This document shows, one piece after another, positions 11,318 through 52,700 of a stretch of DNA of 62,670 nucleotides; positions within the stretch are counted from its first letter, which is position 1, and every line of letters begins with the position of its first letter. The stretch is from Photorhabdus khanii NC19 (GTDB lineage Bacteria > Pseudomonadota > Gammaproteobacteria > Enterobacterales > Enterobacteriaceae). Where the stretch lies: NCBI RefSeq assembly GCF_000517265.1, contig NZ_AYSJ01000011.1, forward strand, positions 1-62,670. Direction: 5' to 3'. A program made the position numbers and the translations under genes. The notes under the pieces are model-generated. The model saw only the letters and a list, made by a program, of their open reading frames with translations. It ran no database searches and had not been told where the DNA came from.

Positions 11318-12067
11318 ATGCTGAATGATCAAGAATTTATGCGTTACAGCCGACAACTGTTGCTGGAAGATATCGGCCCTGAAGGGCAGGAAAAACTGAA
11401 AACCAGCCGTGTACTGATTGTCGGTCTGGGAGGGCTGGGTGCCCCTGCGTCTCTTTACCTCGCCGCAGCAGGTGTGGGAACAATTTATCTCGCAGATGAT
11501 GACCAACTGCACATCTCCAATTTACAACGACAAATCCTTTACCGCACTGAGGATATCACTTCATCAAAAGCTGAACTTGCAGCTAATCAGCTCAATGCAC
11601 TGAATCCACTGGTAAAAGTAACTGTTCTTAATCAACGTCAAGATGTGGAATCCTTGAAAAAAAGCGTAAAACAGGTCGATCTGGTTCTTGATTGCTGTGA
11701 CAACATGGCAACCCGCCATGCTATCAATGCGGCTTGTGTGGCCACGCGAAAACCCTTAATCAGCGGCAGTGCCGTTGGGTTCAGCGGTCAGCTTATGGTG
11801 TTTGAACCCCCTTATCCTCATGGCTGCTATACCTGTCTCTACCCTGATCAGGAAGAACCACAGAGGAATTGCCGAACTGCGGGTGTATTAGGTCCGGTAG
11901 TCGGCGTCATCGGCACCTTGCAGGCATTGGAAGCCATCAAAATGTTAACCGGAATTCCCTCTCCGCTAAGTGGCAAACTCCGGCTGTTTGATGGTAAGCA
12001 GCAAAGCTGGAGCACGCTACAGCTCAGTCAATCGCAGCAATGCCCAATCTGCGGAAATATGGCATGA
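11318..12067 (+). CDS. thiF: ThiS adenylyltransferase
   Basis: ThiF adenylates the C-terminal glycine of the sulfur carrier ThiS. The 249-aa E1-like protein has the ATP-binding GLGGLGAPASLYLAAAGVG loop (about residues 35-53), two zinc-binding CxxC pairs (CYTCLYP near 170 and CPICG at the C-terminus), and the catalytic-cysteine region (NCRTAGVLGPVVG). It follows thiE by 22 bp and overlaps thiS by 4 bp (ATGA). Confidence 0.95.
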   Translation: MLNDQEFMRYSRQLLLEDIGPEGQEKLKTSRVLIVGLGGLGAPASLYLAAAGVGTIYLADDDQLHISNLQRQILYRTEDITSSKAELAANQLNALNPLVKVTVLNQRQDVESLKKSVKQVDLVLDCCDNMATRHAINAACVATRKPLISGSAVGFSGQLMVFEPPYPHGCYTCLYPDQEEPQRNCRTAGVLGPVVGVIGTLQALEAIKMLTGIPSPLSGKLRLFDGKQQSWSTLQLSQSQQCPICGNMA

Positions 12068-12264
12068 AAATTACTATAAATGACCAGCTGATGGAGCTTA
12101 CCGCTCCTCTGGCTCTACAACAATTACTGGAACAACTTGAATGGTCACAACCGGGAACGGCATTGGCCATTAATCAAACCATTATTCCGCGTTCGAACTG
12201 GAGTACGCACCAAGTTAATGACGGGGACAATATCCTTTTATTTCAGGCTATTGCCGGAGGTTGA
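12064..12264 (+). CDS. thiS: Sulfur carrier protein ThiS
   Basis: 66-aa ubiquitin-like sulfur carrier ending in the essential Gly-Gly (LLFQAIAGG). The glycine thiocarboxylate donates sulfur for the thiazole ring. The start is the ATG at 12064 ([12 protein letters not shown]), overlapping the thiF stop as ATGA; the upstream in-frame ATG at 12040 lies inside thiF and would add eight unrelated residues. Confidence 0.95.
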
Positions 12265-12265
12265 T

Positions 12266-13033
12266 ATGTTAAAAATCGCTGATACTACTTTTGATTCCCG
12301 TCTGTTTACTGGTACAGGCAAATTCGCTAATGCAGATTTAATGATTCAGGCTATAGCTGCCTCTGGCAGTCAGCTTGTCACGATGGCGATGAAACGCATT
12401 GATTTGCAGGGAGGTAATGACGCTATTCTGGCACCATTACAAAAACTTGGCGTCAAATTGCTGCCAAATACTTCTGGAGCCAAAACCGCAGAAGAGGCTC
12501 TGTTCGCGGCCCGTCTGGCCCGTGAAGCGTTGGCAACAAACTGGATCAAACTGGAGATCCATCCTGATGTGAAATACTTGCTGCCCGATCCGGTCGAAAC
12601 GCTCAAAGGCGCTGAAATGCTGGTCAAAGACGGATTTGTCGTTCTACCTTATTGCAGTGCGGATCCTGTTTTGTGTAAACGTCTGGAAGAAGTGGGCTGC
12701 GCGGCAGTCATGCCTTTGGGCGCGCCGATTGGCTCTAATCAGGGACTGCTAACCCGGGATTTCCTGCAAATTATTATTGAGCAAGCACAGGTGCCAGTGG
12801 TTGTCGATGCGGGCATCGGCGCACCAAGCCATGCACTGGAAGCGATTGAACTGGGTGCTGATGCCGTATTGGTCAATACCGCTATTGCCGTCGCGCATAA
12901 CCCAGTAAAAATGGCACAGGCATTTAGCATGGCAATTGCAGCAGGCGAATTATCCTATCAGGCTGGTTTAGCAAGTCGAAAACAACACGCTGTTGCATCC
13001 AGCCCATTGACTGATTTTCTGGGAACGTTCTAA
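12266..13033 (+). CDS. thiG: Thiazole synthase
   Basis: ThiG condenses DXP, ThiS-thiocarboxylate and dehydroglycine (from ThiH) into the thiamine thiazole. 255 aa, starting [20 protein letters not shown] one base after thiS. The TIM-barrel shows [21 protein letters not shown] and the phosphate-binding [16 protein letters not shown] longer open frame to 12137 would overlap thiS out of frame and is rejected. Its stop shares one base with the thiH start. Confidence 0.96.
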
Positions 13034-14740: not shown

Positions 14741-15217
14741 ATGAACGTACAAGAAATCCTGAATAACGAAGATTATTCTGACAACAAGAAAAACTCTCAT
14801 AAAGAACTGGTTAACGGCTCATTCGAAGAAGGATATAACGGCTGGAGAATCCCGGCCCCTGAATCAGTAGAAATCTTATCTGAAGATGACATTCACTTTC
14901 TCAGAATCCAAAGCGTTACCGGTTCTGGCGTCATTGATCAAATTATAGAAGGATTAGAACCTAACACTAAATATAAACTAACAGCTACAGCGCGCGTATC
15001 AGCAGAATGGGCCTCATCAGCTTATTTTGGTTTACAGAGCCGTACCGATGGCCCCGAATCTTTTGCTGTAAACAGCACCGATTTTACAACGGGCTCGGTA
15101 GAATTAAGCACAGATCAAGAGGGGCTTTTACGCGTTTATTTGCTGAAAGACCAAGTTGGCCATCGACCAGACGGAGAAACCGCTGACTTTACCGGTTTTG
15201 TTTTAGAAAAAGCCTAA
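14741..15217 (+). CDS. Predicted CBM-like beta-sandwich protein, copy 1
   Basis: 158 aa, acidic, no signal peptide or membrane segment. After a polar tail of about 22 residues comes ELVNGSFEEGYNGWRIP, then a beta-rich region with GLEPNTKYKLTATARV and ending ADFTGFVLEKA. The NGSFE..GW opening and the N..YKLTA pattern are typical of carbohydrate-binding-module beta-sandwiches (CBM4/9-like), so sugar binding is likely but inferred. It is clearly paralogous to the next gene, with its own promoter, an AAAGGA ribosome-binding site and a terminator, so it may be strongly expressed as a single transcript. Exact family not recognised. Confidence 0.75.
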   Translation: MNVQEILNNEDYSDNKKNSHKELVNGSFEEGYNGWRIPAPESVEILSEDDIHFLRIQSVTGSGVIDQIIEGLEPNTKYKLTATARVSAEWASSAYFGLQSRTDGPESFAVNSTDFTTGSVELSTDQEGLLRVYLLKDQVGHRPDGETADFTGFVLEKA

Positions 15218-15247
15218 CTATTTAACTTCGAAGTAGTTTGACATTAA

Positions 15248-15282
15248 AACACACCCGGAACAGGAAGCTCCGGGTGTTTTAA
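15248..15282 (+). terminator. Intrinsic terminator of CBM-like copy 1
   Basis: ACACCCGGA (15251-15259) pairs with TCCGGGTGT (15269-15277), a 9-bp stem followed by a short T run. It ends the monocistronic unit. Confidence 0.88.
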
Positions 15283-15532
15283 TATTGGTTGAGAAAATAA
15301 ACCCAAAAATTATAAATTAATATTTTAACTGGAATATAGTTAAATTATTTTAAAACAAATTCCCATCGAAATAATTTAGCCCTATCATTTATTTTCACAT
15401 TAGTTATCACAAATATCATTTTCAATCAAAAAACACGATTTAATATTTTTTCATTGTTGATAAAATGTTTACCGAAAAGAGTCTATTAAGCAAGACTAAA
15501 TTTAATTGTTATTTATTTAAAAGGACTAATAT
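15283..15532 (+). promoter_or_regulatory. Spacer and duplicated promoter of CBM-like copy 2
   Basis: AT-rich spacer whose 3' end repeats the leader of copy 1: TTGATAAA at 15457-15464, CCGAAAA at 15472-15478 and TTATTTAAAAGGACTAATAT just before the ATG. The distances between elements are the same (8 bp between blocks; 55 versus 54 bp from the second block to the ATG). Confidence 0.55.
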
Positions 15533-16018
15533 ATGGATATGAAGAAAATGCTAAATAGCGCAGATTATTCTAATACAAAAAACGCGAATAAAGAGCTGGT
15601 TAATGGTTCATTTAACGAAGGATATCGTGGCTGGAGAATCCCAACCCCTGAAACTGTAGAAATCTTATCCGAGAATGGTGTTAACTTTCTGAGAATCCCA
15701 AGTTATTCTGATTCTGGCATCATTGATCAAATTATAAAAGGATTGGAGCCTAATGTTAAATATAGACTGACTAGTACAGCACGCTTATCAACAAAAAAAA
15801 TACCACAAAGAGCCTTGCCAGCTTATTTTGGTTTACAGAATCGTACATCTGGCCCCGAATATTTTGTTGTAGATAGCTTCAATTTTACGACCGGTTCTGT
15901 TGAATTAAATACAGATGAAGAGGGATTATTACGCGTTTACATGCTAAAAGACCAATTTGTCGCCCTCCCAGAAGAAGCAACCGCTGACTTTACCGGTTTT
16001 ATTTTAGAAAAAGCCTGA
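15533..16018 (+). CDS. Predicted CBM-like beta-sandwich protein, copy 2
   Basis: 161 aa, paralogue of the preceding gene: same NGSFNEGYRGWRIPTPE opening, same IDQIIKGLEPNVKYRLT core and same ADFTGFILEKA ending. It differs by a short basic insertion in the middle (TKKIPQRALP) and a different C-terminal loop (QFVALPEEA). No signal peptide. Likely a cytosolic or non-classically released carbohydrate-binding protein; function unproven. Own terminator follows. The conserved Trp of GYRGWRIP and the aromatic PAYFGLQ segment are candidate ligand contacts. Confidence 0.75.
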   Translation: MDMKKMLNSADYSNTKNANKELVNGSFNEGYRGWRIPTPETVEILSENGVNFLRIPSYSDSGIIDQIIKGLEPNVKYRLTSTARLSTKKIPQRALPAYFGLQNRTSGPEYFVVDSFNFTTGSVELNTDEEGLLRVYMLKDQFVALPEEATADFTGFILEKA

Positions 16019-40952: not shown

Positions 40953-41013
40953 TGCCATTAAAAACGGCTGGTTTTAGGCCAGCAAGATTATTTAGCTACT
41001 TTTAGCGCCTTGG

Positions 41014-41053
41014 ACTGATATGCCTTTTGCCCGTGGGTATCAGTCTCTTTTTT
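41014..41053 (+). terminator. Terminator-like hairpin between lamB and malM
   Basis: ACTGATA (41014-41020) pairs with TATCAGT (41038-41044), extended by GCC/GGG pairing in the loop, followed by CTCTTTTTT. It probably attenuates transcription so that malM is made at a lower level than lamB. Confidence 0.75.
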
Positions 41054-41073
41054 CAACCGGACAAGGGTAAAAA

Positions 41074-41991
41074 ATGAAAATTAAACTGCTCTCATTCTGT
41101 CTTAGTGCCTTACTCTGTAGCGCAGCTCCTTTGATAAGCTATGCAACACCTATCACTACAACAGCTAAGGCAACCACGACACAGGATGCTGTTGCACCTT
41201 CCCTCTCAACAGCAGCACTGCAAAAACTGAACTGGCAGCCAGTTAACCCAAACGATACGCAGACCATTATCCTCAATGCCACATCCCAGCACCTTAATGA
41301 AGGAAATATTCAGGGGCCAATCGCTGCATTCGCCATTCCGGCAAATCGGGGCTCACTGGACATTATGCTGAGCAGTTTAGTACAAGATAAACAAGTTTAT
41401 GCGCCAAATGTTTTGGTACTTGATCAGGGATTACGCCCCGCAGCATTTTATCCAAGTGACTACTTTCCGTATGAACGTCCGGGGGTTATGTCTACAGATC
41501 GGTTGGAAGGCACATTAAAGCTGACGCCAGCATTAGGACAACAGCAAATTTATGTGCTGGTCTATACCACTCGTACCGATTTGCAAAAATCAACACAAAT
41601 GATTGATCCCGCCAAAGCTTATGCTCAAGGAGTCGGCAACGCCGTTCCCGCCATTCCTGATCCCGTTGCCCGCCATACAGAAACCGGTACATTGAAGCTG
41701 AAAGTGAAATCGGAACAAAACACCGGTAACATCACTATTGGTCAGGTCTTATCAGGCCCGGCACTGGAGCCTGTCGTTGTTGGGCCAACACAAGCTACCG
41801 CAACACAGCGCACTCCACTGAAAACCAAACCTGTCCTGAACGACACAGAACGTTATTTCAGTGATGCAATTAAAAACGAAATTAATAACGGCAATATTGA
41901 TAAGGCGCTGAATCTGCTGGATGAAGCAGAACGCCTGGGATCTTCAACTGCACGAGAAACGTTTATTAACAGTATCAAAAACAAGAGATAA
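41074..41991 (+). CDS. malM: Periplasmic maltose operon protein MalM
   Basis: 305 aa with a signal peptide (MKIKLLSFCLSALLCSA, cut near ISYA). MalM is a periplasmic protein of unknown mechanism always found at the end of malK-lamB. The central region NRGSLDIMLSSLVQDK...VLVLDQGLRPAAFYPSDYF and the low-complexity Thr/Ala region after the signal are typical. Identity from sequence and position; function unresolved in the family. Confidence 0.9.
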   Translation: MKIKLLSFCLSALLCSAAPLISYATPITTTAKATTTQDAVAPSLSTAALQKLNWQPVNPNDTQTIILNATSQHLNEGNIQGPIAAFAIPANRGSLDIMLSSLVQDKQVYAPNVLVLDQGLRPAAFYPSDYFPYERPGVMSTDRLEGTLKLTPALGQQQIYVLVYTTRTDLQKSTQMIDPAKAYAQGVGNAVPAIPDPVARHTETGTLKLKVKSEQNTGNITIGQVLSGPALEPVVVGPTQATATQRTPLKTKPVLNDTERYFSDAIKNEINNGNIDKALNLLDEAERLGSSTARETFINSIKNKR

Positions 41992-42050
41992 ATCATTTAC
42001 CTATGTTGGCTATATAGTAAGTGCACCATTAGTTTGTTCAATGCAAAACA

Positions 42051-42075
42051 AATGCTCTCCGAAGAGGAGAGCATT
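42051..42075. terminator. Bidirectional terminator (malM / glycosyltransferase)
   Basis: AATGCTCTCC (42051-42060) and GGAGAGCATT (42066-42075) make a perfect 10-bp stem with a 5-nt loop between convergent malM and the GT4 gene. The U-rich side (TTTGTTTT) faces the minus-strand transcript. Confidence 0.85.
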
Positions 42076-42112
42076 AAGTTTAACTCTCATAATATGTTAC
42101 GACAGGAGATAC

Positions 42113-43186
42113 TTACCGATGGAGAGATAAAGCGTTAGTAATTCTTAACAGGAAATTGTCTTCATAAAGAAAGGCAATAGAATTTTTTATTGCATAATGA
42201 TCTCTTATTTTATATCCATCAATAATGAGTTGTAATTTTTTAGACAACTCAAGAATACTACCTGATTTATAAAGCTCGCCATTTAAATCGTTGATAATAT
42301 CATTCGGACCACACTTACAATCTGAACTTATACAATAGATACCATAGGATATTGCTTCCGCTAATACCATGCCAAAACCTTCATATTTTGATGTTAAAAT
42401 AAAAGCGGATACTTCTTTTATGCTACTCATTACAAATTCCCAAGGCTGATCTTGCCAACCGTGCCAAATAATATTGTTATTTATATTGAGTTGTGAAGAT
42501 AATTTTTTTAAGTAACTCTCATCATCACCAGAACCTACCATATGTAATTCCCAATGACCATGTAATTGAGAAAGCGCTAAAAATAGTTCAGTTAGATTTT
42601 TTGACTTATAGGCAAGAATTCTTCCAACATATAATAATCTAGCTATGTGTTTTGGTTGAGGAATTATAAAGGGATTCATTTTGATAGGATTGAAAATAAG
42701 ATGAAGTTTCTCTGTTTTTATCCCAAAGGATAACATTTGATCTCGTAAACCAGAACTGATTACAAGGTGCTCGTCGGCACAGCATAAATCTTTAATTTTC
42801 TGTGGGGTAGGATTTCTAATGGAAGTATGCAGCCAAGAGTAAGTTTTTACTGGGAAATTAATTTTTTCACAGGAAAGTCGAGCAATATTACAGGATGTTG
42901 TGTCTAAACTTATTAGAATCTCAGGGTAAAATCTTGCTAATATCAAGGATAATTCGCATGCAATATCCTGGCGAGATTTGTAATTGCTTGATGCTAAGGA
43001 TATATGTTGAGCATTAGATAACCAAGCATGATTTTCAATTCTGTTTATCTCATTTAAGGATATGAAAATGAAATCAATTTCAATGTTGGCACGGTTAATT
43101 AAACTTATTAAACTCGAACATACCATTTCTACCCCACCATATCCATTTAAGAAAAGATCATGGTATATTATAAATATTTTTTTCAT
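42113..43186 (-). CDS. GT4-family glycosyltransferase
   Basis: 357 aa retaining glycosyltransferase of GT-B fold. The N-terminal GYGGVEMV loop (residues 14-21), LLYVGRILAYKSKN near 190 and the EX7E motif region KYEGFGMVLAEAISYG near 280 are classic GT4. No signal or TM, so cytosolic. Donor and acceptor unknown. It is the last of a minus-strand run behind the PIG-L deacetylase (10-bp gap); GT4 plus PIG-L recalls MshA/MshB and BshA/BshB. Very AT-rich compared with the mal genes next door, suggesting horizontal transfer. Confidence 0.88.
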   Translation of the reverse strand: MKKIFIIYHDLFLNGYGGVEMVCSSLISLINRANIEIDFIFISLNEINRIENHAWLSNAQHISLASSNYKSRQDIACELSLILARFYPEILISLDTTSCNIARLSCEKINFPVKTYSWLHTSIRNPTPQKIKDLCCADEHLVISSGLRDQMLSFGIKTEKLHLIFNPIKMNPFIIPQPKHIARLLYVGRILAYKSKNLTELFLALSQLHGHWELHMVGSGDDESYLKKLSSQLNINNNIIWHGWQDQPWEFVMSSIKEVSAFILTSKYEGFGMVLAEAISYGIYCISSDCKCGPNDIINDLNGELYKSGSILELSKKLQLIIDGYKIRDHYAIKNSIAFLYEDNFLLRITNALSLHR

Positions 43187-43196
43187 TGTTAATCTT

Positions 43197-43976
43197 TCAT
43201 TTAATTAACCAAAAACGTTCTTGTATTTTGATTTTGTTAATAGATTGATGATATTTTCTCAATGAGACTAAAAGATTTGATTTGTTACCAAACAGAGGTT
43301 CTAATTGAGACTCATAAAATAAAATATTTTGCATTTTTTCTTTTAAATCAATATCTAACAATATAGCTCGCTTATCAAATTTGTTATTTCTTAATAAAGA
43401 ATTTTCCACACTATCGGGATTAATAATAGGATATTCACCTAAAACATAAGGGAAATCTTCATAAAGTAATATTTTTAACTTACGTGAACCTGTTATATTA
43501 TGTACAAGATTATTTATTATAATATGGTCCACATGTCGACCTATTCCCAAAGGGGCATATATATAATCAGGCTGATAATTTAACAATGTTTTGTCGATGA
43601 GATCTTGAGCCATATCGGATGCATAATCTGATTTATGTACCAGACCACTATAAATCATGGCAGAATTTTTATACATAAGTTCACCGCATTGATCAGTTCT
43701 GTAAATGCAATCTAAAATTCTACCATGTATTGGAATCGCTGATAATTTATTACAAAAGGCGATATCCTCATTAGCTCGCTTTGAATAAAGTTTTATAAAT
43801 GAATTCATATTATCATTATTCGCAGAGTATAAGTAATGAGATGCAATATTTTTGTCATACTCAGTAAAAAATGTTAAAATAACTACCTTTTGATTTTCTG
43901 AAACTAATTTATGTATTAAACCGCCAGCGCTTAAAGCTACATCATCTAAATGGGGTGATAGAAATAAATGTATCAT
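43197..43976 (-). CDS. PIG-L family N-deacetylase
   Basis: 259 aa zinc-dependent deacetylase (LmbE/PIG-L). The zinc motif SPHLDDVALSAGG is at residues 7-19 and the second metal region GIGRHVDHIIINN near 149. Family members remove acetyl groups from GlcNAc-type conjugates (mycothiol, bacillithiol, GPI, teicoplanin). The motif reads H-L-D-D-V instead of H-P-D-D-E, a common variant. One base separates it from the upstream RyR-like gene, and it precedes the GT4 gene. Confidence 0.9.
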   Translation of the reverse strand: MIHLFLSPHLDDVALSAGGLIHKLVSENQKVVILTFFTEYDKNIASHYLYSANNDNMNSFIKLYSKRANEDIAFCNKLSAIPIHGRILDCIYRTDQCGELMYKNSAMIYSGLVHKSDYASDMAQDLIDKTLLNYQPDYIYAPLGIGRHVDHIIINNLVHNITGSRKLKILLYEDFPYVLGEYPIINPDSVENSLLRNNKFDKRAILLDIDLKEKMQNILFYESQLEPLFGNKSNLLVSLRKYHQSINKIKIQERFWLIK

Positions 43977-43977
43977 T

Positions 43978-44724
43978 TCAAACCTCCATGTAAAGGCGGT
44001 TATATTTTATTTCCATGAGTACAATATAAATAGCGGCTAAATCAATGCGTATCCCATCCCTGTTTTTTATAAAATCTGAGTTGTTAATATTTAGCTTTTC
44101 TTTTGATTGGACTCTTTCATCATCGGCATAAAATTCTTTCATTATATCAAACCAACTGGCATGGATTTTTTCTGCTGCAATTTCTATTATACTGTCACTG
44201 TGGCCTAATATTGTCATTAAATCTGAAAAAATAGCATCGTTTGTAGAAAGTAACATCTCATAATTAAAATTACCAGATGCAATATTGTCATCGTATAAAT
44301 AAATACTTTTCATTATCTCTGATATAATACTCAAGTCGCTCTTGATTAACCTTTTCTCAAACTTCTTCTCTTTTTCTGTGAATGCTTGATAAGGTTTTAA
44401 AAAATTGACTTGCAAATTGTATTCAATTTCAAGTTTTGTTATTGAATCTTGCGTAGCAGTTCTATTATCGATTAAATATTTTGCACACCATAAATCGTGT
44501 ATGCAAGAGGCAAGAATATCTAAATTACCGTCCTGCTCCAAGAACGCACATATCTCAGAAAATAATTTAATTTGTGAACCATCTAGCTGGGAATTTAAAG
44601 TTATATCACCAGGATTAAATATAAATGAAGCTTGTTTTAATCTTCTCTGAATCTCTTTGGTTAAATATGTTGAATTTAAATTAACTTCGTTATCCAGCAG
44701 ATTTTTGTGATTTTCTTTATTCAT
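43978..44724 (-). CDS. Protein with possible RyR-type repeats
   Basis: 248 aa, soluble, helical. Two segments look alike: LDILASCIHDLWCAKYLIDN (about residue 78) and IIEIAAEKIHASWFDIMKEF (about 178). The first is followed about 36 residues on by PYQAFTEKEKKFEKRLI (about 131), reminiscent of the RyR-domain pattern IH..W......GW...L.PY..L...EK..DR. I therefore suspect two divergent RyR-like units, a domain found in ryanodine receptors and in bacteria, possibly binding small nucleotides. This is by eye only; otherwise a protein of unknown function. It follows the nucleotidyltransferase by 13 bp. Confidence 0.5.
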   Translation of the reverse strand: MNKENHKNLLDNEVNLNSTYLTKEIQRRLKQASFIFNPGDITLNSQLDGSQIKLFSEICAFLEQDGNLDILASCIHDLWCAKYLIDNRTATQDSITKLEIEYNLQVNFLKPYQAFTEKEKKFEKRLIKSDLSIISEIMKSIYLYDDNIASGNFNYEMLLSTNDAIFSDLMTILGHSDSIIEIAAEKIHASWFDIMKEFYADDERVQSKEKLNINNSDFIKNRDGIRIDLAAIYIVLMEIKYNRLYMEV

Positions 44725-44737
44725 GATTTATCTCCTT

Positions 44738-45361
44738 TTATTTATTCATTAACCTTATTTCTGTTGATGATATATCTAATCGGAATAGACTTTCTGGAAT
44801 AGATTCAAATAAAAAACGATGCTCCTTTCTAATATTTACCAAATCATCAACTGCATGATATTTATTATTAAAAAAACGGCCAGCCACAAGAAATCTACAA
44901 TCATTATTCTTAATTGTCATAAGAGATTTTTTTAATCCCTCTTCACCGCCATAATAAATAGGGTTATTAATTTCTTGACATAAATCAGCACCAATTACGA
45001 AAATTGCTCCTTGATAAATATGCGATTTATCAGTAAAAAACGTAGCATCGCTTAAAATTATATTACCTTTATCCTTGAATTGCTCTATCCTTTTGAAAAC
45101 TTCATCGGTTGGAATGGTAAGTTTTACCGCATTCTTAATTGACAGTTCATAATAGGGTTTTCTTTTAGTCATCATTGTAGCGATTTCTTTTAATTCTTCA
45201 TGACCTTTATGAAGTGGATTGAAAGAACCCGATAAAATTAACGCATTTTTCCAGTCTATGTTTGTATTGCTAAAGTCCCCTTTTCTATCAATATGTATAT
45301 AATTCAACCTGCCATCAATTAAATTGTTTATATAACGCTCATTGTTGTTAGGTATATTCAT
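44738..45361 (-). CDS. HxGH-motif nucleotidyltransferase (cytidylyltransferase/NadD-like)
   Basis: 207 aa of the nucleotidylyl-transferase superfamily. The nucleotide-binding motif SGSFNPLHKGHEEL (residues 44-57) contains HKGH, and the C-terminal LDISSTEIRL is the ISSTxIR motif typical of NadD/CoaD-type enzymes. The middle has VIGADLCQEINNP in the position of the NadD GxD region. It could adenylylate or cytidylylate a phosphorylated small molecule. First gene of the downstream four-gene unit; a 265-bp spacer upstream probably carries its promoter. AT-rich. Confidence 0.82.
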   Translation of the reverse strand: MNIPNNNERYINNLIDGRLNYIHIDRKGDFSNTNIDWKNALILSGSFNPLHKGHEELKEIATMMTKRKPYYELSIKNAVKLTIPTDEVFKRIEQFKDKGNIILSDATFFTDKSHIYQGAIFVIGADLCQEINNPIYYGGEEGLKKSLMTIKNNDCRFLVAGRFFNNKYHAVDDLVNIRKEHRFLFESIPESLFRLDISSTEIRLMNK

Positions 45362-45626
45362 ATATGTTCCTATATGTTATTATTGTTAATAAAATATATA
45401 TTAATTTCTTATAATTCCATATATTTATAAAATTCTATCCTTGTATTATTTACTAATGGTGATTAATGACACATCTTTATTTTCTTGAAATAAATATCAA
45501 ATTAATTTACTTGACTATTCATCAGCAGCGAATCCTTTTGTTTTAACATTAAGGTTATGAAATTTAAATGTTTTATTCACAGTTCCACTTATTATTAAAT
45601 TGCGTAAGTTATCTGAGCTCCTCTCA
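45362..45626. other. Spacer between the two halves of the AT-rich cluster
   Basis: 265 bp, extremely AT-rich, with no gene. It likely contains the promoter of the nucleotidyltransferase-RyR-PIG-L-GT4 unit and the end of the aminotransferase unit; no clear terminator hairpin was seen. Confidence 0.5.
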
Positions 45627-46787
45627 TTAATTATCAGTATTTCCTTCACAACTTCCTTCAGTGATTTCAATCAAGGCAGATTTTATTTTTAAAATATCTT
45701 CCGCTGTATGCGACGTATCAAGGCTAACTCGAACAGTACCATCAGGGTAAGTGCCAAATTTTTTATGGGCTAATGGTGCACATTGCAACCCAGGACGTGT
45801 AATAATATTGTATTTGTTCTCGAGTATATAAGAAACTTCTCCGGGATGATAACCTTCCACTGTAAGAAGAATTGTTGGTAAGCCAACATTATGTTTACAG
45901 ATTAGCTTGATTTTATTTAATTGTGATAACTCATCTATAAGAGTGGTACGCAGAGTTTGTAATTGATTTTGAATGTTCTCTATCCCAATTTTTTTTAAAC
46001 GCCTTATAGACGCCAACAATGAAAGTATGCCAATAGTGTTTTGTGTTCCCGATTCATACTTGTATGGTATTCCAGTTGGTTGTGTTGTTAATCTTGATAA
46101 TACACCTGTCCCACCCTGGATTAATTCATTATGAGAAAATCCATTATCAAGAATAAAATATCCCCCAATACCTGATACTCCTCCTAAACTTTTGTGCCCA
46201 CTAAAAACAAAGTAATCAATATTACCTTTCGATAAATCAATTAATTGTGAACCAAAAGATTGTGAACCATCAACTAAAACCATTGCTCCGTATAAATGTG
46301 CCAGTTTTCCTACCTCATCTATATTACAAAATGTACCAATAGTATTCGAGCAACTATGAACTACTAGTAGCTTAGTTTTCTTATTCCTTAATAAAATCTC
46401 CAAATGCGATATATCAATTTCACCATCTGTCACATCGATCAATTGACTACTTACTCCAATATCTTTTAAATGGTTTATGGGTCTAAGTACTGAATTATGT
46501 TCTAAATGGGTAGTAATGACATTATCACCCGGTTTAAGCGTACCTTTTATACATTCATTGAGTGAGTACGTTGCTCCTGAGTTAAAAATGACTGTCCCAT
46601 GACCATTTAATTTCGTTTGTTCGATTAATTCATGTCGGCACTCTTCAATGAGTTCGGTAACCTTTTTAGATTGTTGCGATAAAGATCGCCCTGGAGTTAC
46701 TCCAAGAGTGTCTAAATACATATTTATCATGTCTTTCACTTCTTGTGACTTTGGCCATGAGGTAGAAGCTGCATCTGCATATAACAT
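45627..46787 (-). CDS. Class V aminotransferase, cysteine-desulfurase-like (EF2568 type)
   Basis: 386 aa PLP enzyme. YADAASTSWPKSQEV at the N-terminus, HLEHNSVLRPI near 95, VDGSQSFG near 176 and the PLP lysine in FSGHKSLGGVSGIGG near 202. The C-terminal GLQCAPLAHKKFGTYPDG contains the candidate sulfur-accepting Cys and closely follows the EF2568-type subfamily, as does the WPK...GVTPGRS beginning. May deliver sulfur or remove an amino/sulfur group from a metabolite. Its start shares one base with the HIT stop, so the two are coupled. Confidence 0.85.
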   Translation of the reverse strand: MLYADAASTSWPKSQEVKDMINMYLDTLGVTPGRSLSQQSKKVTELIEECRHELIEQTKLNGHGTVIFNSGATYSLNECIKGTLKPGDNVITTHLEHNSVLRPINHLKDIGVSSQLIDVTDGEIDISHLEILLRNKKTKLLVVHSCSNTIGTFCNIDEVGKLAHLYGAMVLVDGSQSFGSQLIDLSKGNIDYFVFSGHKSLGGVSGIGGYFILDNGFSHNELIQGGTGVLSRLTTQPTGIPYKYESGTQNTIGILSLLASIRRLKKIGIENIQNQLQTLRTTLIDELSQLNKIKLICKHNVGLPTILLTVEGYHPGEVSYILENKYNIITRPGLQCAPLAHKKFGTYPDGTVRVSLDTSHTAEDILKIKSALIEITEGSCEGNTDN

Positions 46788-47443
46788 TATCCAATCTCCA
46801 TATGGTTATTAATATATAATTTGAATTTTTTAGCAGTCGCATTCATCTCCTTTATTCCTTCATTAGCTCTCCAATCGGATCTTTCTGGCATATTTAAACT
46901 ATTTGCCAATACTGTTCTTATCATTCCTCTCTCAATGAAATCTGATTCACCTATCGTAAAAATATATTTATTACCACTATCTTCAACATAGATATAGGGG
47001 CCAGCCTCACCGAACATTTTCAGTTCATCTAATGAGTCTATTGTATGCATTTTAAATTGATTCTTTAATTTATTATGAAGATCAATCTCAGTAGGGAAAC
47101 AACATAAATGTGCATGATAACAGTACTTTTGATTTGGATCCATGACGATACAACCACCAGCTCGCCCATTTTCATAACAAATAGGATGACTTATATTGTA
47201 ATATTCGCGATAAAAATCATTTATTATATTCTTAAACTGTTTCAATTCTTTTATTGCTTCTTCATCGTATATTTCTGCAAAGCACCGATATCCCCCTAAA
47301 TCAGTATTACATTTGTTAGTGGCAATAATTATATAACCTTCAATTATCTGGCCTTTAGGTACAAAAGCATAGAAATATTTTCCTTGTAAAAGTATTTTAT
47401 CTTTTTCAAAGGAAGATTCTGGGTGACAAAAAATACATCCCAT
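46787..47443 (-). CDS. HIT-superfamily nucleotide hydrolase/transferase
   Basis: 218 aa. N-terminal CIFCHPESS has the zinc-type CxxC typical of HIT proteins, and the active-site stretch YCYHAHLCCFPTEID (about residues 107-121) gives H-x-H-x-C: the two first histidines, including the nucleophile, are kept, but the third is a cysteine. HIT enzymes hydrolyse or transfer nucleotidyl groups via a His-NMP intermediate. About 100 residues longer than a minimal HIT domain. Between the 298-aa unknown gene (11 bp upstream) and the class V aminotransferase. Confidence 0.82.
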   Translation of the reverse strand: MGCIFCHPESSFEKDKILLQGKYFYAFVPKGQIIEGYIIIATNKCNTDLGGYRCFAEIYDEEAIKELKQFKNIINDFYREYYNISHPICYENGRAGGCIVMDPNQKYCYHAHLCCFPTEIDLHNKLKNQFKMHTIDSLDELKMFGEAGPYIYVEDSGNKYIFTIGESDFIERGMIRTVLANSLNMPERSDWRANEGIKEMNATAKKFKLYINNHMEIG

Positions 47444-47454
47444 TTTAAACTCCT

Positions 47455-48351
47455 TTATCGTTTGTCGATTTTATTGATAAATATATCTTCATGACATAAA
47501 TTGAAATCTTCTTCGGTATGCCAGGCAATCATCATGCTAAACTTATTTATAATATTATGTTTACTTAGCCTACTTTGTAGTTCAGAATAAATAGGATTTG
47601 GTAAAATTATTCTGCATTTCGTCCTAATAGCAAAACAAGCGTTAATTATAGATATAATTGTACGGGGAGATGTATTTGACAAACCTATCACTTCCACCGT
47701 GGTATCATCAAAACCCAATATCGCTAATTCTTTCCCAACAGTTAACAACTTAATATACTTGTAGCAAGGACACTGCTTTGAGTAAGCGATCCAATCTCTA
47801 TTTACTTCTCTGCCGAAAAAATTGATTTTACTAATATTATCTATTTCATTAAAATCACTCAGGTCTACATCGATTTTGGTAGCTCCTTCTACTATTATTT
47901 CTGTAAAATCAAAAACGTTCACTCTGTCACATATGTATTTTTCGAAAATCTTTGAATAACATTTGATCTTTCTTTCATCTGAGTAACATACCGTCGCATC
48001 CACATCATTACGATGTGTCTGTTTAGCACTTTCTATTATCAAAGTTCGCGATTTTACACATTCATCTATGCCAAAATCGCTAAGCATATTAATGGATACT
48101 TGCCTATGTTTAAGACTAAATTCACACTTTCTTGCTATAACAATTGACAAGTATGTATCGTTTCTTTTAAGCGAAAATGCTTTTATTTCACTAGAGATAT
48201 TATATTTTTTTTCTTTAATATTCTTCCAAATAAAGTAGTCTAAGCTTCCTATATTACGCTTATAAAGATTATTTAACAGGATATAATTATCCTCCGTTAC
48301 GTCCTCGCAGACCAAGATTACTCCATTTTTCCTGTCTTCAATATTCTCCAT
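47455..48351 (-). CDS. Unknown 298-aa protein, first gene of AT-rich cluster
   Basis: 298 aa, soluble, no motif I can name with confidence. The second half (NRDWIAYSKQCPCYKYIKLL, then LAILGFDDTTVEVIGLSN, a helix-rich stretch IISIINACFAIRTKCRIILPN and the ending WHTEEDFNLCHEDIFINKID) has a rhythm reminiscent of a GNAT-type acyltransferase C-terminus, but no acetyl-CoA loop is evident. If it were an acyltransferase, it would complete a GT4 / PIG-L / acyltransferase set; I cannot assert that. It leads the minus-strand cluster. Confidence 0.6.
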   Translation of the reverse strand: MENIEDRKNGVILVCEDVTEDNYILLNNLYKRNIGSLDYFIWKNIKEKKYNISSEIKAFSLKRNDTYLSIVIARKCEFSLKHRQVSINMLSDFGIDECVKSRTLIIESAKQTHRNDVDATVCYSDERKIKCYSKIFEKYICDRVNVFDFTEIIVEGATKIDVDLSDFNEIDNISKINFFGREVNRDWIAYSKQCPCYKYIKLLTVGKELAILGFDDTTVEVIGLSNTSPRTIISIINACFAIRTKCRIILPNPIYSELQSRLSKHNIINKFSMMIAWHTEEDFNLCHEDIFINKIDKR

Positions 48352-48833
48352 TATCTTATCTCGTTATTTTATATTGGCGCTAATTGCCTCTCATTTTCAG
48401 TTTATATTTATTTTCGAGTATATGAACATGAAATATTGTATTTTATGACCTGTATCATGATTTAAAGATTCAGCAGCAGTACAAACCGTAATTCGTTATC
48501 CTGAAAGATTAAATTAAAGTCGCCTTTAATGATATAAGAACACCGGTAAAAATAGGTTCTTTAAAGAAGAATATTTCATAAATTCTATATGGTGTGACTT
48601 TAAATAAAATAATCATATTGACCAGCCATCTGAATTAAACACGATGAACTATTTCTGCATGCCAAATAATATCTATTGTATGTTTAAGGTGATTTTGTCG
48701 GAACTGCTCATAGACAAATCAAGTTCAATACTTTTACACATGAAAGTTCACACCCTCGTACAAGATACCGATTTTTCTTGACTATAGATTTTCACCTATA
48801 TAGCATTTAACCTATATTGAGTAAGGAGTAGTT
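48352..48833. other. AT-rich spacer before the HigBA-like module
   Basis: 482 bp between two divergent units. It should carry the promoter of the seven-gene cluster (minus strand) and that of the toxin-antitoxin pair (plus strand). An AAGGAG ribosome-binding site is at 48823-48828. No gene or strong repeat recognised. Confidence 0.5.
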
Positions 48834-49184
48834 ATATGGGCTATAGAAACGACGGACACCTTTGATGCATGGTTCGATGCTTTGGATGATACCGATAGGG
48901 CCAATATGCTAGCTTCAATAATAGCGCTTCGAGAAAGAGGCCCTATGTTGCCCAGGCCATACGCAGACACTGTGAACGGTTCATGCTACAGCAACATGAA
49001 AGAATTGCGCGTCCAAAGCAAAGGCGACCCGCTCCGAGCATTCTTTGCGTTCGACCCCAAGCGGAGAGGAATTTTGCTTTGCGCTGGTAACAAAACCGGA
49101 GACGAGAAACGGTTTTATCAAACAATGATTCCGATTGCTGATCGTGAGTTCACGGCACATCTGGAAAAGCTAAAAAAGGAGTAA
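48834..49184 (+). CDS. HigB/RelE-like toxin with missing standard start codon
   Basis: The open frame encodes WAIETTDTFDAWFDALDDTD, then ANMLASIIALRERGP and ELRVQSKGDPLRAFFAFDPKR, a HigB/Gp49-type mRNA-interferase toxin of about 116 aa. In the expected start position the in-frame codon is ATA (48834-48836), 5 nt after AAGGAG; the nearby ATG (48836-48838) is in another frame and gives a 9-residue peptide. The first standard in-frame start is TTG at 48882, which would remove the first beta/alpha elements. So the toxin may be weakly made, truncated or dead. Its base composition is GC-richer than its surroundings, suggesting plasmid or other foreign origin. Antitoxin follows by 7 bp. Confidence 0.72.
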   Translation: MWAIETTDTFDAWFDALDDTDRANMLASIIALRERGPMLPRPYADTVNGSCYSNMKELRVQSKGDPLRAFFAFDPKRRGILLCAGNKTGDEKRFYQTMIPIADREFTAHLEKLKKE

Positions 49185-49191
49185 ACATACT

Positions 49192-49494
49192 ATGGCAAGA
49201 ACGCTTGATCAAATATTAGCAAATGAAAAGCCCGAAGTTGTTGCCAATGCACAAGCTGCGGCAACAGAAATGTTATTAAACATCCATCTGGCAGAACTTC
49301 GTGAGCGGGTACAGAAGACCCAAAGCGAAATAGCTCTGGCTCTTGGTATCAAGCAACCCACGGTTTCTGACATGGAGAAGCTTGGCCGCGACTTGAAACT
49401 GTCTTCCCTCAAACGTTACGTTGAGGCAACAGGTAGCAAGCTGCGCCTCGATATCGAGTTGCCCGACGGCACCCACTACGGATTTTCCGTTTAA
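49192..49494 (+). CDS. HigA-like antitoxin (XRE-family HTH)
   Basis: 100 aa with a Cro/C1-type helix-turn-helix (TQSEIALALGIKQPTVSDMEK, about residues 43-63) and the ending LRLDIELPDGTHYGFSV common in HigA antitoxins that follow HigB-type toxins. It should bind and neutralise the upstream toxin and repress the pair. Intact, with a GGAG site 13 bp before the ATG (49177-49180). Toxin-first order supports a HigBA-type module. Confidence 0.88.
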   Translation: MARTLDQILANEKPEVVANAQAAATEMLLNIHLAELRERVQKTQSEIALALGIKQPTVSDMEKLGRDLKLSSLKRYVEATGSKLRLDIELPDGTHYGFSV

Positions 49495-49765
49495 CTACGA
49501 ACGCCCCGGTAACACTCACAGATATATTCAGAATCAATGTCTGCATCGACTTTTTTACGCGCCAGATGATTGTGAGGAACAAGGTCTTCAAATTGAACTC
49601 TTTTCAGAAAGAAAAATTGGGCGAGAGGATTCGTGGCGGCAAGCTCCATTTAGTGAACGGAACTCGATTAAAACAGAGCACCAAGTAAAAAATTGGTACG
49701 TTATCAATAGGTTGAAATGCCCTCCAAAAAGGAGGGCATTTAATTAGCTATGGTACTCTACAGAA
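49495..49765. other. Spacer between higA-like gene and rpoC
   Basis: 271 bp. The right end carries the rpoC terminator. A frame open from about 49494 to 49688 (40 codons from ATG 49566) has no recognised homology and no ribosome-binding site, so I do not call it. This is the right border of the accessory region next to rpoC. Confidence 0.5.
49715..49741. terminator. rpoBC operon terminator
   Basis: AAATGCCCTCC (49715-49725) and GGAGGGCATTT (49731-49741) form a perfect 11-bp stem with an A5/T5 loop about 24 nt past the rpoC stop. It can also stop transcription from the toxin-antitoxin pair. Confidence 0.88.
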
Positions 49766-52700
49766 TTACTTCTTATCGCCACCAAAACCAGCATTCAGCA
49801 GTTCTGCCAGGTTTGCAGTTGCTTCATCTACACTCACTTGTGGTGCTTCAGAAGGCTCATTCAACTGACGACGACGCATACGGTCCTGATGGTAAGCATA
49901 ACCCGTACCGGCTGGGATCAGACGACCTACGATGACGTTCTCTTTCAAGCCACGCAGTTCATCACGTTTACCCGCAACCGCCGCTTCTGTCAGCACGCGG
50001 GTCGTTTCCTGGAACGATGCCGCAGAGATGAAGGATTCAGTCGCCAGAGACGCTTTGGTGATACCTAACAGATCACGTCCATAAATTGCAGGGACTTTAC
50101 CTTCCTGTTCCAGCTTACGGTTTGCCACTTTAACGCGGGCATATTCAACCTGTTCGCCTTCCAGGAATTCGGAACTACCTGCACTTTCGATGGTTGCTTT
50201 ACGCAGCATCTGACGCACGATAACTTCAATGTGTTTATCGTTAATCTTAACCCCTTGCAGGCGGTAAACTTCCTGAACTTCGTTGGTGATGTAACGGGTA
50301 ACCGCATGAACGCCACGCAGACGCAAGATGTCATGTGGAGACTCTGGACCATCGGAGATCACATCACCACGCTCAACAACCTCACCTTCGAATACGTTGA
50401 GCTGACGCCATTTAGGGATCATCTCTTCGTAAGCATCACCACCATCTAATGGGGAGATAACCAGACGGCGTTTACCTTTGGTTTCTTTACCGAAGGAGAC
50501 AATACCACTGACTTCAGCCAGGATTGCAGGTTCTTTCGGACGACGCGCTTCGAACAGGTCAGCAACACGTGGCAGACCACCGGTAATATCTTTCGTACCG
50601 CCGGATTCCTGAGGAATACGCGCTAAGGTATCACCCGCAGAGATGCTGACACCATCGTCTAACTGAACAATTGCTTTGCCTGGCAGGAAATATTGAGCAG
50701 GCATATCAGTACCTGGGATCAATACATCGTCACCCTTGGCATCAACGATTTTCAGTGCCGGACGCAAGTCTTTACCACTACCGGTACGCTCTGCACTATC
50801 CAGAACAACCAGTGAAGACAGACCCGTCAGCTCATCCGTCTGACGGGTAATGGTCTGACCATCTACCATATCGGCGAAACGGATGATACCGGATACTTCA
50901 CTGACTACTGGCATGGTATGTGGATCCCAGTTAGCAACAGTTTCGCCGCCGTTAACTGCTTCGCCATCACCTTTACCCAATACCGCACCGTAAGGCACTT
51001 TATAACTTTCTTTAGTACGGCCAAATTCGTCGATCAAGCACAATTCGGTGTTACGGGAAGTAATCACCAGTTTACCTGCGGAGTTGGTAACGGATTTCGC
51101 GTTAAACAGTTTCAGGCTACCTTTGTTACGAACCTGAATGCTGGATTCCGCTGCTGCACGGGATGCCGCACCACCGATGTGGAACGTACGCATCGTCAGC
51201 TGTGTACCCGGCTCACCAATTGACTGCGCCGCAATAACACCAACAGCTTCGCCTTTATTGATGATGTGTCCGCGAGCAAGGTCACGACCATAACAGTTCG
51301 CACAAACACCAAAGTCAGTTTCACAACTTACAACAGAACGTACTTTAATGCTGTCAACAGAGCTCTCTTCTAACAGATCACACCATTTTTCGTTCAGCAG
51401 GGTGTTACGTGGAACCAGAATGTCAGCAGTACCCGGCTTGAGAACATCTTCTGCCGTTACACGACCCAATACACGCTCACGCAGTGGCTCTTTAACATCA
51501 CCACCTTCAATGACCGGCGTCATCAGAATACCGTCGTGCGTACCACAGTCGTCTTCTGTAACAACCAGATCCTGTGCAACGTCAACCAGACGACGAGTCA
51601 GATAACCAGAGTTCGCCGTTTTCAGTGCGGTATCCGCCAAACCTTTACGGGCACCGTGGGTTGAGATGAAGTACTGGAGTACGTTCAAGCCTTCACGGAA
51701 GTTCGCGGTGATTGGGGTTTCGATAATGGAACCGTCTGGTTTAGCCATCAGGCCACGCATACCTGCCAACTGGCGGATCTGAGCGGCGGAACCACGCGCG
51801 CCAGAGTCAGCCATCATAAAGATGCTGTTGAAGGAGACCTGTTGTTCTTCTTCACCGTTACGGTTAATGACTGTCTCAGTGGACAGGTTTTCCATCATTG
51901 CCTTAGCTACACGCTCGTTTGCTGCGGCCCAGATATCGATAACTTTGTTATAACGTTCGCCAGCAGTTACCAGACCAGACTGGAACTGTTCCTGTATTTC
52001 AGCAACTTCTGCTTCTGCTTCCGTGATGATCCCAGCTTTTTTCTCTGGGATAACCATGTCATCAATACCAACAGATGCACCTGAACGCGCAGCGTAGGCA
52101 AAACCGGTGTACATGATCTGGTCAGCGAAGATAACTGTTGGTTTCAGGCCCATAACACGGTAGCAAGTGTTCAGCATTCTGGAGATAGCTTTTTTACCCA
52201 GTGGTTGGTTAACCAGAGAGTAAGGCAGACCTTTTGGCACGATCATCCACAGAATTGCACGACCAATAGTAGTATCAACCAGACCAGTACTGGTGGTGAT
52301 ATTACCCTCGCCATCTCTCACTTCTTCTGAGATACGAACTTTAACACGAGCATGCAGAGAAGCCAGACCTGCGCGGTATACGCGTTCTGCTTCTTTAGGC
52401 CCGGTCAGCACCATACCTTCGCCTTTAGCGTTAACACAGTCACGGGTCATGTAATACAGACCCAGAACAACGTCCTGAGATGGCACGATGATTGGCTCAC
52501 CACTCGCAGGAGACAGGATGTTGTTAGTAGACATCATCAATGCACGCGCTTCTAACTGGGCTTCCAGTGTCAGCGGTACGTGAACAGCCATCTGGTCACC
52601 ATCGAAGTCGGCGTTATATGCCGCACACACCAATGGGTGCAACTGAATCGCTTTACCTTCGATCAGAACCGGTTCGAATGCCTGAATACCCAAACGGTGA

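Follow-up and report, generated by a model that had tools for sequence, protein, structure and literature searches.

A genus-wide seven-gene cluster of Photorhabdus that pairs a HIT protein with a cysteine desulfurase, and the metabolite pathway it may encode

What would a block of seven AT-rich genes, lying between the maltose gene malM and the RNA polymerase gene rpoC of Photorhabdus khanii NC19, be kept for? The window that we analysed is the 62,670-nucleotide stretch at positions 1 to 62,670 of contig NZ_AYSJ01000011.1 (assembly GCF_000517265.1), and the block occupies positions 42113-48351. The order of transcription is p7 (an orphan protein), hit (a long HIT protein), plp (a pyridoxal phosphate (PLP) enzyme), nt (a nucleotidyltransferase), ryr (an RyR-like protein), pigl (a PIG-L deacetylase) and gt (a glycosyltransferase). 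The genes are conserved in the genus under purifying selection, and hit and plp have counterparts that stand side by side in distant lineages. The reading that we tentatively prefer, which is the best available while falling somewhat short of probable, is that the cluster encodes a pathway whose product is a glycosylated metabolite derived from sulfur and nucleotides, with the HIT protein and the desulfurase as its core.

The physical description given by the initial annotation is confirmed throughout: there are seven open reading frames, all on the minus strand and within the same outer limits, and the gaps along the direction of transcription are 11, -1 (a one-base overlap), 265, 13, 1 and 10 bp, so that a single 265-bp break interrupts otherwise tight spacing of -1 to 13 bp. 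The AT-richness is equally real, with a G+C fraction of 0.307 in the cluster against 0.454 in the remaining window, where non-overlapping stretches of that length go no lower than 0.399.

Conservation within Photorhabdus is nearly complete. Scanned with two peptide patterns, 84,980 species genomes yielded 11 loci, all in Photorhabdus and 91-95% identical; the scan could find close relatives only, because the patterns were derived from a HIT alignment of near-identical Photorhabdus rows. In a search of the genus, p7 is matched in 12 of 12 genomes, split in two in one of them and a mere remnant in another. Across the window and 11 fetched neighbourhoods (designated below by L numbers), the genes still present keep the same order, and judged by reading frames the cluster looks intact in 10 of the 12 (the window and L014-L022), plp being a few residues shorter in L014 and L018. 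The other two copies are decaying: pigl and p7 are broken in L023, and L024 has lost nt and hit, retains plp, ryr and p7 as fragments, and carries two stops in gt. All seven genes were also found by tblastn in a further species (L033), and the locus in L031 is interrupted by a contig end. Median dN/dS values, from 9 to 11 sequences per gene, are 0.105 for plp, 0.115 for hit, 0.167 for nt, 0.174 for ryr, 0.176 for gt, 0.185 for p7 and 0.203 for pigl, compared with 0.110 for malM; all seven genes are under purifying selection. Thus, the conserved order, the selection and the two decaying copies indicate a set that is old in the genus and selectively kept, and dispensable in some strains. Within the cluster, the ryr and nt genes of L022 and L033 have 92-93% DNA identity to the window, versus 85% for p7, a possible recombination mosaic.

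The proposed core is encoded by hit and plp. The 218-aa product of hit (46787..47443) is a long HIT/CwfJ-like nucleotide-binding protein with the motif HAHLCCFP; its only domain match is through CwfJ_C_1 (23.2 bits, cut-off 21), it resembles a CWF19-like protein in the PDB (E 0.0011), and both histidines of the H-x-H motif are kept in 8 of 8 aligned rows. The 386-aa product of plp (45627..46787) is a class-V PLP enzyme of the cysteine desulfurase/selenocysteine lyase type (Aminotran_5, E 1.3e-64), and it has the residues that mark a class-V cysteine desulfurase, the PLP lysine (K199) and the active-site cysteine (C336), both invariant in seven diverse sequences.

The pairing of these two genes extends well beyond Photorhabdus. 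A tblastn search of 72,556 plasmids with hit matched two records, both from Lactococcus: in pUC06C, the HIT gene and a class-V PLP gene overlap, a gene for an EamA-like transporter (28.1 bits against a cut-off of 28.2) follows, and insertion sequence elements are nearby; pUCCL635A carries broken copies of both the HIT and the PLP gene. With the Lactococcus HIT protein as query, eight plasmid records were matched, its own included; a desulfurase lies beside the HIT gene or one gene away in all five records with at least 80% query cover (counting the own record and the broken copy), so that 5 of the 8 carry a class-V desulfurase near a long HIT gene. None of the three with lower cover (Parabacteroides 79%, Sulfitobacter 51%, Listeria 50%) shows a desulfurase in the 8-18 kb read. 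On two Streptomyces plasmids the gene order is DCD-like, HIT, an unknown protein of 313 aa and NifS-type desulfurase; on Rhizobium leguminosarum pRL1 it is PfkB, NifS/DndA-type desulfurase, HIT, TrpD, methyltransferase and PhyH. The alignment of the long HIT family also includes Parabacteroides and a distant genome (G493), and by lineage the pairing is present in four of six: Photorhabdus, Lactococcus, Streptomyces and Rhizobium have it, and Parabacteroides and G493 do not. A widened HIT profile matched 8 of 247 genomes, at full length only in the window and G493, and no class-V PLP gene lies within approximately 1.5 kb at the seven loci other than the window.

The partner desulfurases fall into two subfamilies, one EF2568-like, in which the Lactococcus enzyme scores above the curated TIGR01977 cut-off (388.9 bits), and the other NifS/DndA-like; therefore, the pair is not simply one inherited block. 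Only eight places in the 5.2 Mb of the window genome are similar to plp, so a chance adjacency of hit and plp should be rare. Nucleotide- or ribose-handling proteins (DCD-like, TrpD, PfkB, ThyX, HD) are encoded next to several of the long HIT genes. Seen with two desulfurase subfamilies in four lineages, the pair points to a single unassigned reaction. Two of the loci that were read have further features. In G493 (L025:418-5682), the distant HIT relative, an unknown 428-aa protein, an HD-domain protein with a weak dGTPase match, a DNA methylase and a ThiL-like AIR synthase are encoded in a row, on a contig that also bears an integrase-looking open reading frame (by eye). Adjoining one Streptomyces HIT-desulfurase locus (L148, approximately 11810-12740) are regular repeats that translate as GSSPRVRGA/GVIPAGAGS and look by eye like a CRISPR array.

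Downstream of the core, two proteins point to nucleotide chemistry. The 207-aa product of nt (44738..45361) is an HxGH nucleotidyltransferase (CTP_transf_like, 28.9 bits, cut-off 21, E 1.4e-6) and is NMNAT/NadD-like by its motifs GSFNPLHKGH and ISSTEIR, which are invariant in 11 sequences, and by a weak score to TIGR00482 (E 4.9e-6, below the cut-off of that model). The 248-aa product of ryr (43978..44724) has an RyR-like domain at residues 50-134, which scores 26.0 bits (E 1.1e-5) against PF02026, just under the cut-off of 27.4; H76, W79 and E123 are invariant in 11 sequences. PMC13232231 describes the phage protein RyDEP as an enzyme that cleaves signals of the cyclic ADP-ribose type and whose gene lies within an operon for NAD synthesis; other phage RyR relatives only bind such signals. 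Like RyDEP, ryr has the HxxW signature and a PYxxFxxxEK stretch, and a low-confidence model predicts it to be helical; among the RyDEP ligand residues H75, W78, H100 and D117, it keeps the first two as H76 and W79 (11 of 11 sequences), whereas the position of the HP histidine (H100) is V or I106 and that of D117 is E, both placed by eye. It also differs from the RyR (R12) proteins in being a chromosomal protein whose gene adjoins an NMNAT-like gene. The AlphaFold2 model of ryr (pLDDT 46) gave no usable fold match, and an internal RyR duplication, suspected from two HxxW motifs, is not claimed (hhalign probability 0.1). Because nt and ryr are adjacent, 13 bp apart, we propose that the pathway may have an ADP-ribosyl-like intermediate.

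The remaining three genes suggest sugar and acyl tailoring, and it was from two of them that the initial annotation drew its analogy with mycothiol and bacillithiol, in whose pathways a glycosyltransferase family 4 (GT4) enzyme and a PIG-L deacetylase likewise adjoin. That analogy does not survive comparison with curated models. The product of gt (42113..43186, 357 aa) is a GT4 enzyme (PF00534, E 2.1e-27) that passes the WaaB equivalog cut-off (NF007396, 463.5 against 385 bits) and matches WaaB structures (PDB 5n7z, 5n80 and 6y6i, E 2e-60), but reaches only 37.3 bits against BshA (cut-off 273.7); no MshA model is among the 25 best NCBIfam matches listed for it. The product of pigl (43197..43976, 259 aa, motif PHLDD) belongs to PF02585 (60.5 bits, cut-off 28.2, E 3e-16), has the glycopeptide-antibiotic deacetylases Dbv21 (E 2e-12) and teicoplanin deacetylase Orf2 (E 5e-11) as its nearest solved structures, and scores 26.4 bits against BshB1, far under the cut-off of 182.5. 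Membership in either thiol pathway is ruled out by these scores. The HxGH protein fits no better: nt is NMNAT-like, and no cysteine ligase (MshC/BshC) is among its nine NCBIfam matches or the Pfam matches of the seven proteins, a search confined to the cluster. A further difference from these pathways is the presence of a desulfurase. The third protein, p7 (47455..48351, 298 aa), has no Pfam match. Its Foldseek rows include WecD at rank 8 and the mycothiol synthase 2c27 at rank 35 (E 0.54), and VIA-align rows list RNA polymerase subunits at nearly equal Z, so that its assignment as a two-domain GNAT-like acyltransferase is tentative and of low confidence.

A failure of the genes to occur together elsewhere would, by the initial annotation's own standard, count against it, and on this point it is half refuted: the seven stay together throughout Photorhabdus but, in the genomes searched outside the genus, which are samples and not all genomes, the set was not seen together. 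There is no nt among 393 other genomes of the order sample or, by profile, among 397 of the phylum sample, and hit occurs in 1 of 397 other genomes, the distant G493. Run on the 149 genomes of the family sample, a pigl profile matched only the window, one congener and, weakly and in part, one other genome, and Escherichia coli genomes have no near match at the DNA level. On plasmids, nt, p7 and ryr have no relative at the limits used; pigl is matched in 14 records, of which the four neighbourhoods read are all rhizobial, with sugar-transport and catabolic genes, and gt is matched in 17, the sole neighbourhood tested (Proteus, L147) being without another cluster gene. In seven other genomes the RyR domain is encoded within open frames 317-852 aa long, and the short loci fetched around these frames contain no match to a cluster gene. 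A phage origin was considered and rejected: p7 and hit are unmatched in phage records, and a PHROG scan of five of the proteins matched only pigl, to a family of unknown function (E 2.2e-5). Scanning viral contigs with nt gave 75 loci, where the similarity is confined to 19-31 residues around GSFNPLHKGH and no other cluster gene is present at E 1e-4. We recognised no description of the cluster or of the HIT-desulfurase pair in a literature search whose coverage left subscription journals mostly, and supplements entirely, outside.

The chromosomal site is itself variable. Both malM and rpoC flank the cluster in 10 of 12 genomes, and L024 shows rpoC only. Around the intact cluster of P. tasmaniensis (L015/L032), neither malM within approximately 5 kb of gt nor rpoC within approximately 9 kb of p7 is seen; therefore, either the cluster has moved in this species or the site holds a larger insert. 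In Table 3 of PMC3091717, malM and rpoC are given as the flanks of the genomic islands GI12 (P. luminescens TT01) and GI10 (P. asymbiotica), and as core genome in Xenorhabdus bovienii. The genes adjoining the cluster vary: AbiEi in L017, AbiEii in L018, a transposase-like open reading frame in L021, and MazEF-like pairs, named by eye, in L014 and L020. That the same seven genes stay together within so variable a site marks them out as a unit, and also keeps a role in defence under consideration. In the window, a Gp49-like/HTH toxin-antitoxin-like pair of normal G+C, encoded on the plus strand at 48882-49494, separates the cluster from rpoC; in relatives it is whole, partial or unmatched.

Smaller features of the locus complete its description. 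The 265-bp spacer between plp and nt (45362..45626, minus strand) is apparently decaying non-coding sequence that varies in length, with repeat-like insertions in L017 and L018; the break is not a fixed feature, since P. thracensis (L021), alone among the species, has 11 bp there. A short peptide gene suspected in the spacer was rejected, its frame being broken in most aligned species. Directly past gt is a terminator-like hairpin with a 10-pair stem (42051..42075, minus strand), found by a consensus scan only, which gave five sites in the region against 2.6 expected from shuffles. Rfam has no match at E 0.1 within 41000-50000. Elsewhere in the window, two adjoining small open reading frames (14741-16018), each with a carbohydrate-binding CBM_4_9-like domain, lie in a second AT-rich patch (G+C 0.31-0.35).

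How might the seven proteins work together? The genes would be transcribed as a single unit or as the two halves of such a unit. By its conserved lysine and cysteine, plp may move sulfane sulfur from cysteine to its own active-site cysteine, and hit, acting with it, would transfer or remove a nucleoside monophosphate at a sulfur-bearing intermediate. From its motifs, nt may attach AMP, or else CMP, to a precursor bearing a phosphate; ryr, from the action of the phage RyR proteins, could bind or process the resulting NAD-like or ADP-ribosyl-like compound. Finally, gt would add a hexose, pigl would free the amine of an N-acetylated sugar, and p7 may acylate that amine. The HIT-desulfurase pair would thus be a core that recurs across phyla, and the other five genes a set for tailoring that is particular to Photorhabdus and was established before the genus diversified. 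The small glycosylated, possibly thiol- or nucleotide-linked metabolite of the initial annotation is retained in part: sulfur, nucleotide and sugar enzymes are co-inherited, and HIT with a class-V PLP enzyme recurs in other phyla, several times by nucleotide genes; it is the likeness to mycothiol and bacillithiol that has been given up. A bolder form of the proposal, which we consider unlikely, holds that the pair is an undescribed, horizontally spread sulfur-to-nucleotide module, making or unmaking for example a nucleoside phosphorothioate or thio-nucleotide, which in Photorhabdus would feed the NMNAT-like, RyR-type ADP-ribosyl-binding and sugar-tailoring proteins and yield a genus-wide sulfur-containing NAD-like glyco-metabolite.

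Several observations weigh against the pathway that we prefer. The cluster has neither a PP-loop or other thiolating enzyme nor an exporter. Only HIT and PLP are seen outside the genus, and the remaining five genes could be part of some other system; even the pair is missing from two long-HIT loci, those of G493 (L025, a 14.2-kb contig) and Parabacteroides (L150), in the stretch read. The plp family is large, with many jobs. Relatives of plp occur in 76 plasmid records, and among the seven neighbourhoods examined one has a HIT gene (pUC06C) and six do not; plp itself falls below the TIGR01977 cut-off (333.8 against 377 bits). In several species the cluster is bordered by genes of AbiE, toxin-antitoxin-like or transposase-like kind, and the WaaB-type gt suggests a lipopolysaccharide (LPS) acceptor. 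Conservation, selection and the pairing are shown, but we infer every reaction, and every function beyond the family level.

The WaaB type of gt leads to the strongest competing explanation, surface-glycan decoration, in which gt would galactosylate the LPS core or another glycan, pigl would deacetylate an amino sugar, p7 would N-acylate it as WecD does, nt would make an activated donor, and plp and hit would have a separate small task. WaaB is an LPS 1,6-galactosyltransferase of which gt is a full-length member by the curated cut-off, the other three matches to gt in the same genome have only 26-28% identity, and WecD is among the structural matches of p7. On the other hand, none of the six companion genes of gt matches an LPS family, and no O-antigen, flippase or second LPS gene is among the seven. 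The WaaB name is also borne by proteins in three Lactococcus and Lactiplantibacillus plasmid records; these organisms are not known to have LPS, so the name does not fix the acceptor. This explanation also leaves the HIT-desulfurase pairing in four lineages unaccounted for; we regard it as rather unlikely, if the most serious of the competitors. Low-molecular-weight thiol synthesis by non-orthologous enzymes, with GT4, PIG-L, HxGH enzyme and GNAT protein in the places of MshA, MshB, MshC and MshD, lines up four roles on paper and can point to 2c27 among the p7 matches. With BshA and BshB1 far below cut-off, nt unlike a cysteine ligase, a p7 model too weak to count and a desulfurase that would use up the cysteine such a thiol needs, it is very improbable.

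Defence or counter-defence acting on NAD-like signals would give ryr the task of sensing or sequestering an ADP-ribosyl signal and nt that of rebuilding the dinucleotide, while the rest would modify nucleotides or DNA. The phage RyR proteins and the NAD-synthesis operon described in PMC13232231 speak for this, as do the genomic islands flanked by malM and rpoC in two Photorhabdus genomes (PMC3091717, Table 3), the AbiEi, AbiEii, Gp49/HTH and MazEF-like neighbours, and the scores of plp against SspA (133.8 bits) and DndA (127.7 bits). Those two scores are desulfurase similarity, and plp is the only match in a PADLOC scan of all seven proteins, the other six having none, by which a known anti-phage system is rejected. 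The cluster core occurs almost throughout the genus and is not patchy, PIG-L and the glycosyltransferase have no obvious role in defence, and ryr, by eye, has a replaced phosphate-contacting histidine and a glutamate at the catalytic aspartate position; we hold this explanation to be unlikely. The pathway reading, if true, would provide a bacterial metabolic setting for the RyR-type nucleotide-binding domain, which has so far been characterised as a phage anti-defence protein. Natural products have been mined extensively in Photorhabdus. No nonribosomal peptide synthetase or polyketide synthase domain is among the Pfam matches for the cluster; therefore, mining that relies on such domains would miss it.

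The cluster can also be compared with known systems. The nearest curated models for plp are those of the selenium genes SclA and EF2568, and three plp relatives that we examined have further selenium genes, such as selD, selA/selB or yedF, in their vicinity, whereas the Photorhabdus cluster contains no selenium gene. In a different context, plasmids of Vibrio lentus and V. nigripulchritudo (L141, L142) encode a plp relative (33-35% identity) in a common cluster with two OMP decarboxylase-like proteins, a dTMP kinase-like protein, a GT-A glycosyltransferase, an adenylation domain, an acyl carrier protein and a MATE transporter, which looks like a nucleotide natural-product locus. DNA phosphorothioation by Dnd/Ssp employs a cysteine desulfurase of the same superfamily as plp, but PADLOC matches no partner protein of that system among the seven. 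The 6-thioguanine operons (tgs in Streptomyces chromogenes and ycf in Erwinia amylovora), as described in PMC7994395, likewise associate a class-V desulfurase with nucleotide hydrolases, and the S. chromogenes layout of desulfurase, nucleotide hydrolase and small exporter recalls the small membrane transporter past the Lactococcus PLP-HIT pair. They differ in that no PP-loop sulfur transferase (TgsB/YcfA) is among the Pfam matches of the seven proteins, HIT replaces NUDIX, and Photorhabdus adds the glycosyltransferase, PIG-L, nucleotidyltransferase and RyR-like genes. Among worked-out cases, it is in the 6-thioguanine operon that a desulfurase, a nucleotide hydrolase and an exporter are found together in the arrangement closest to this one.

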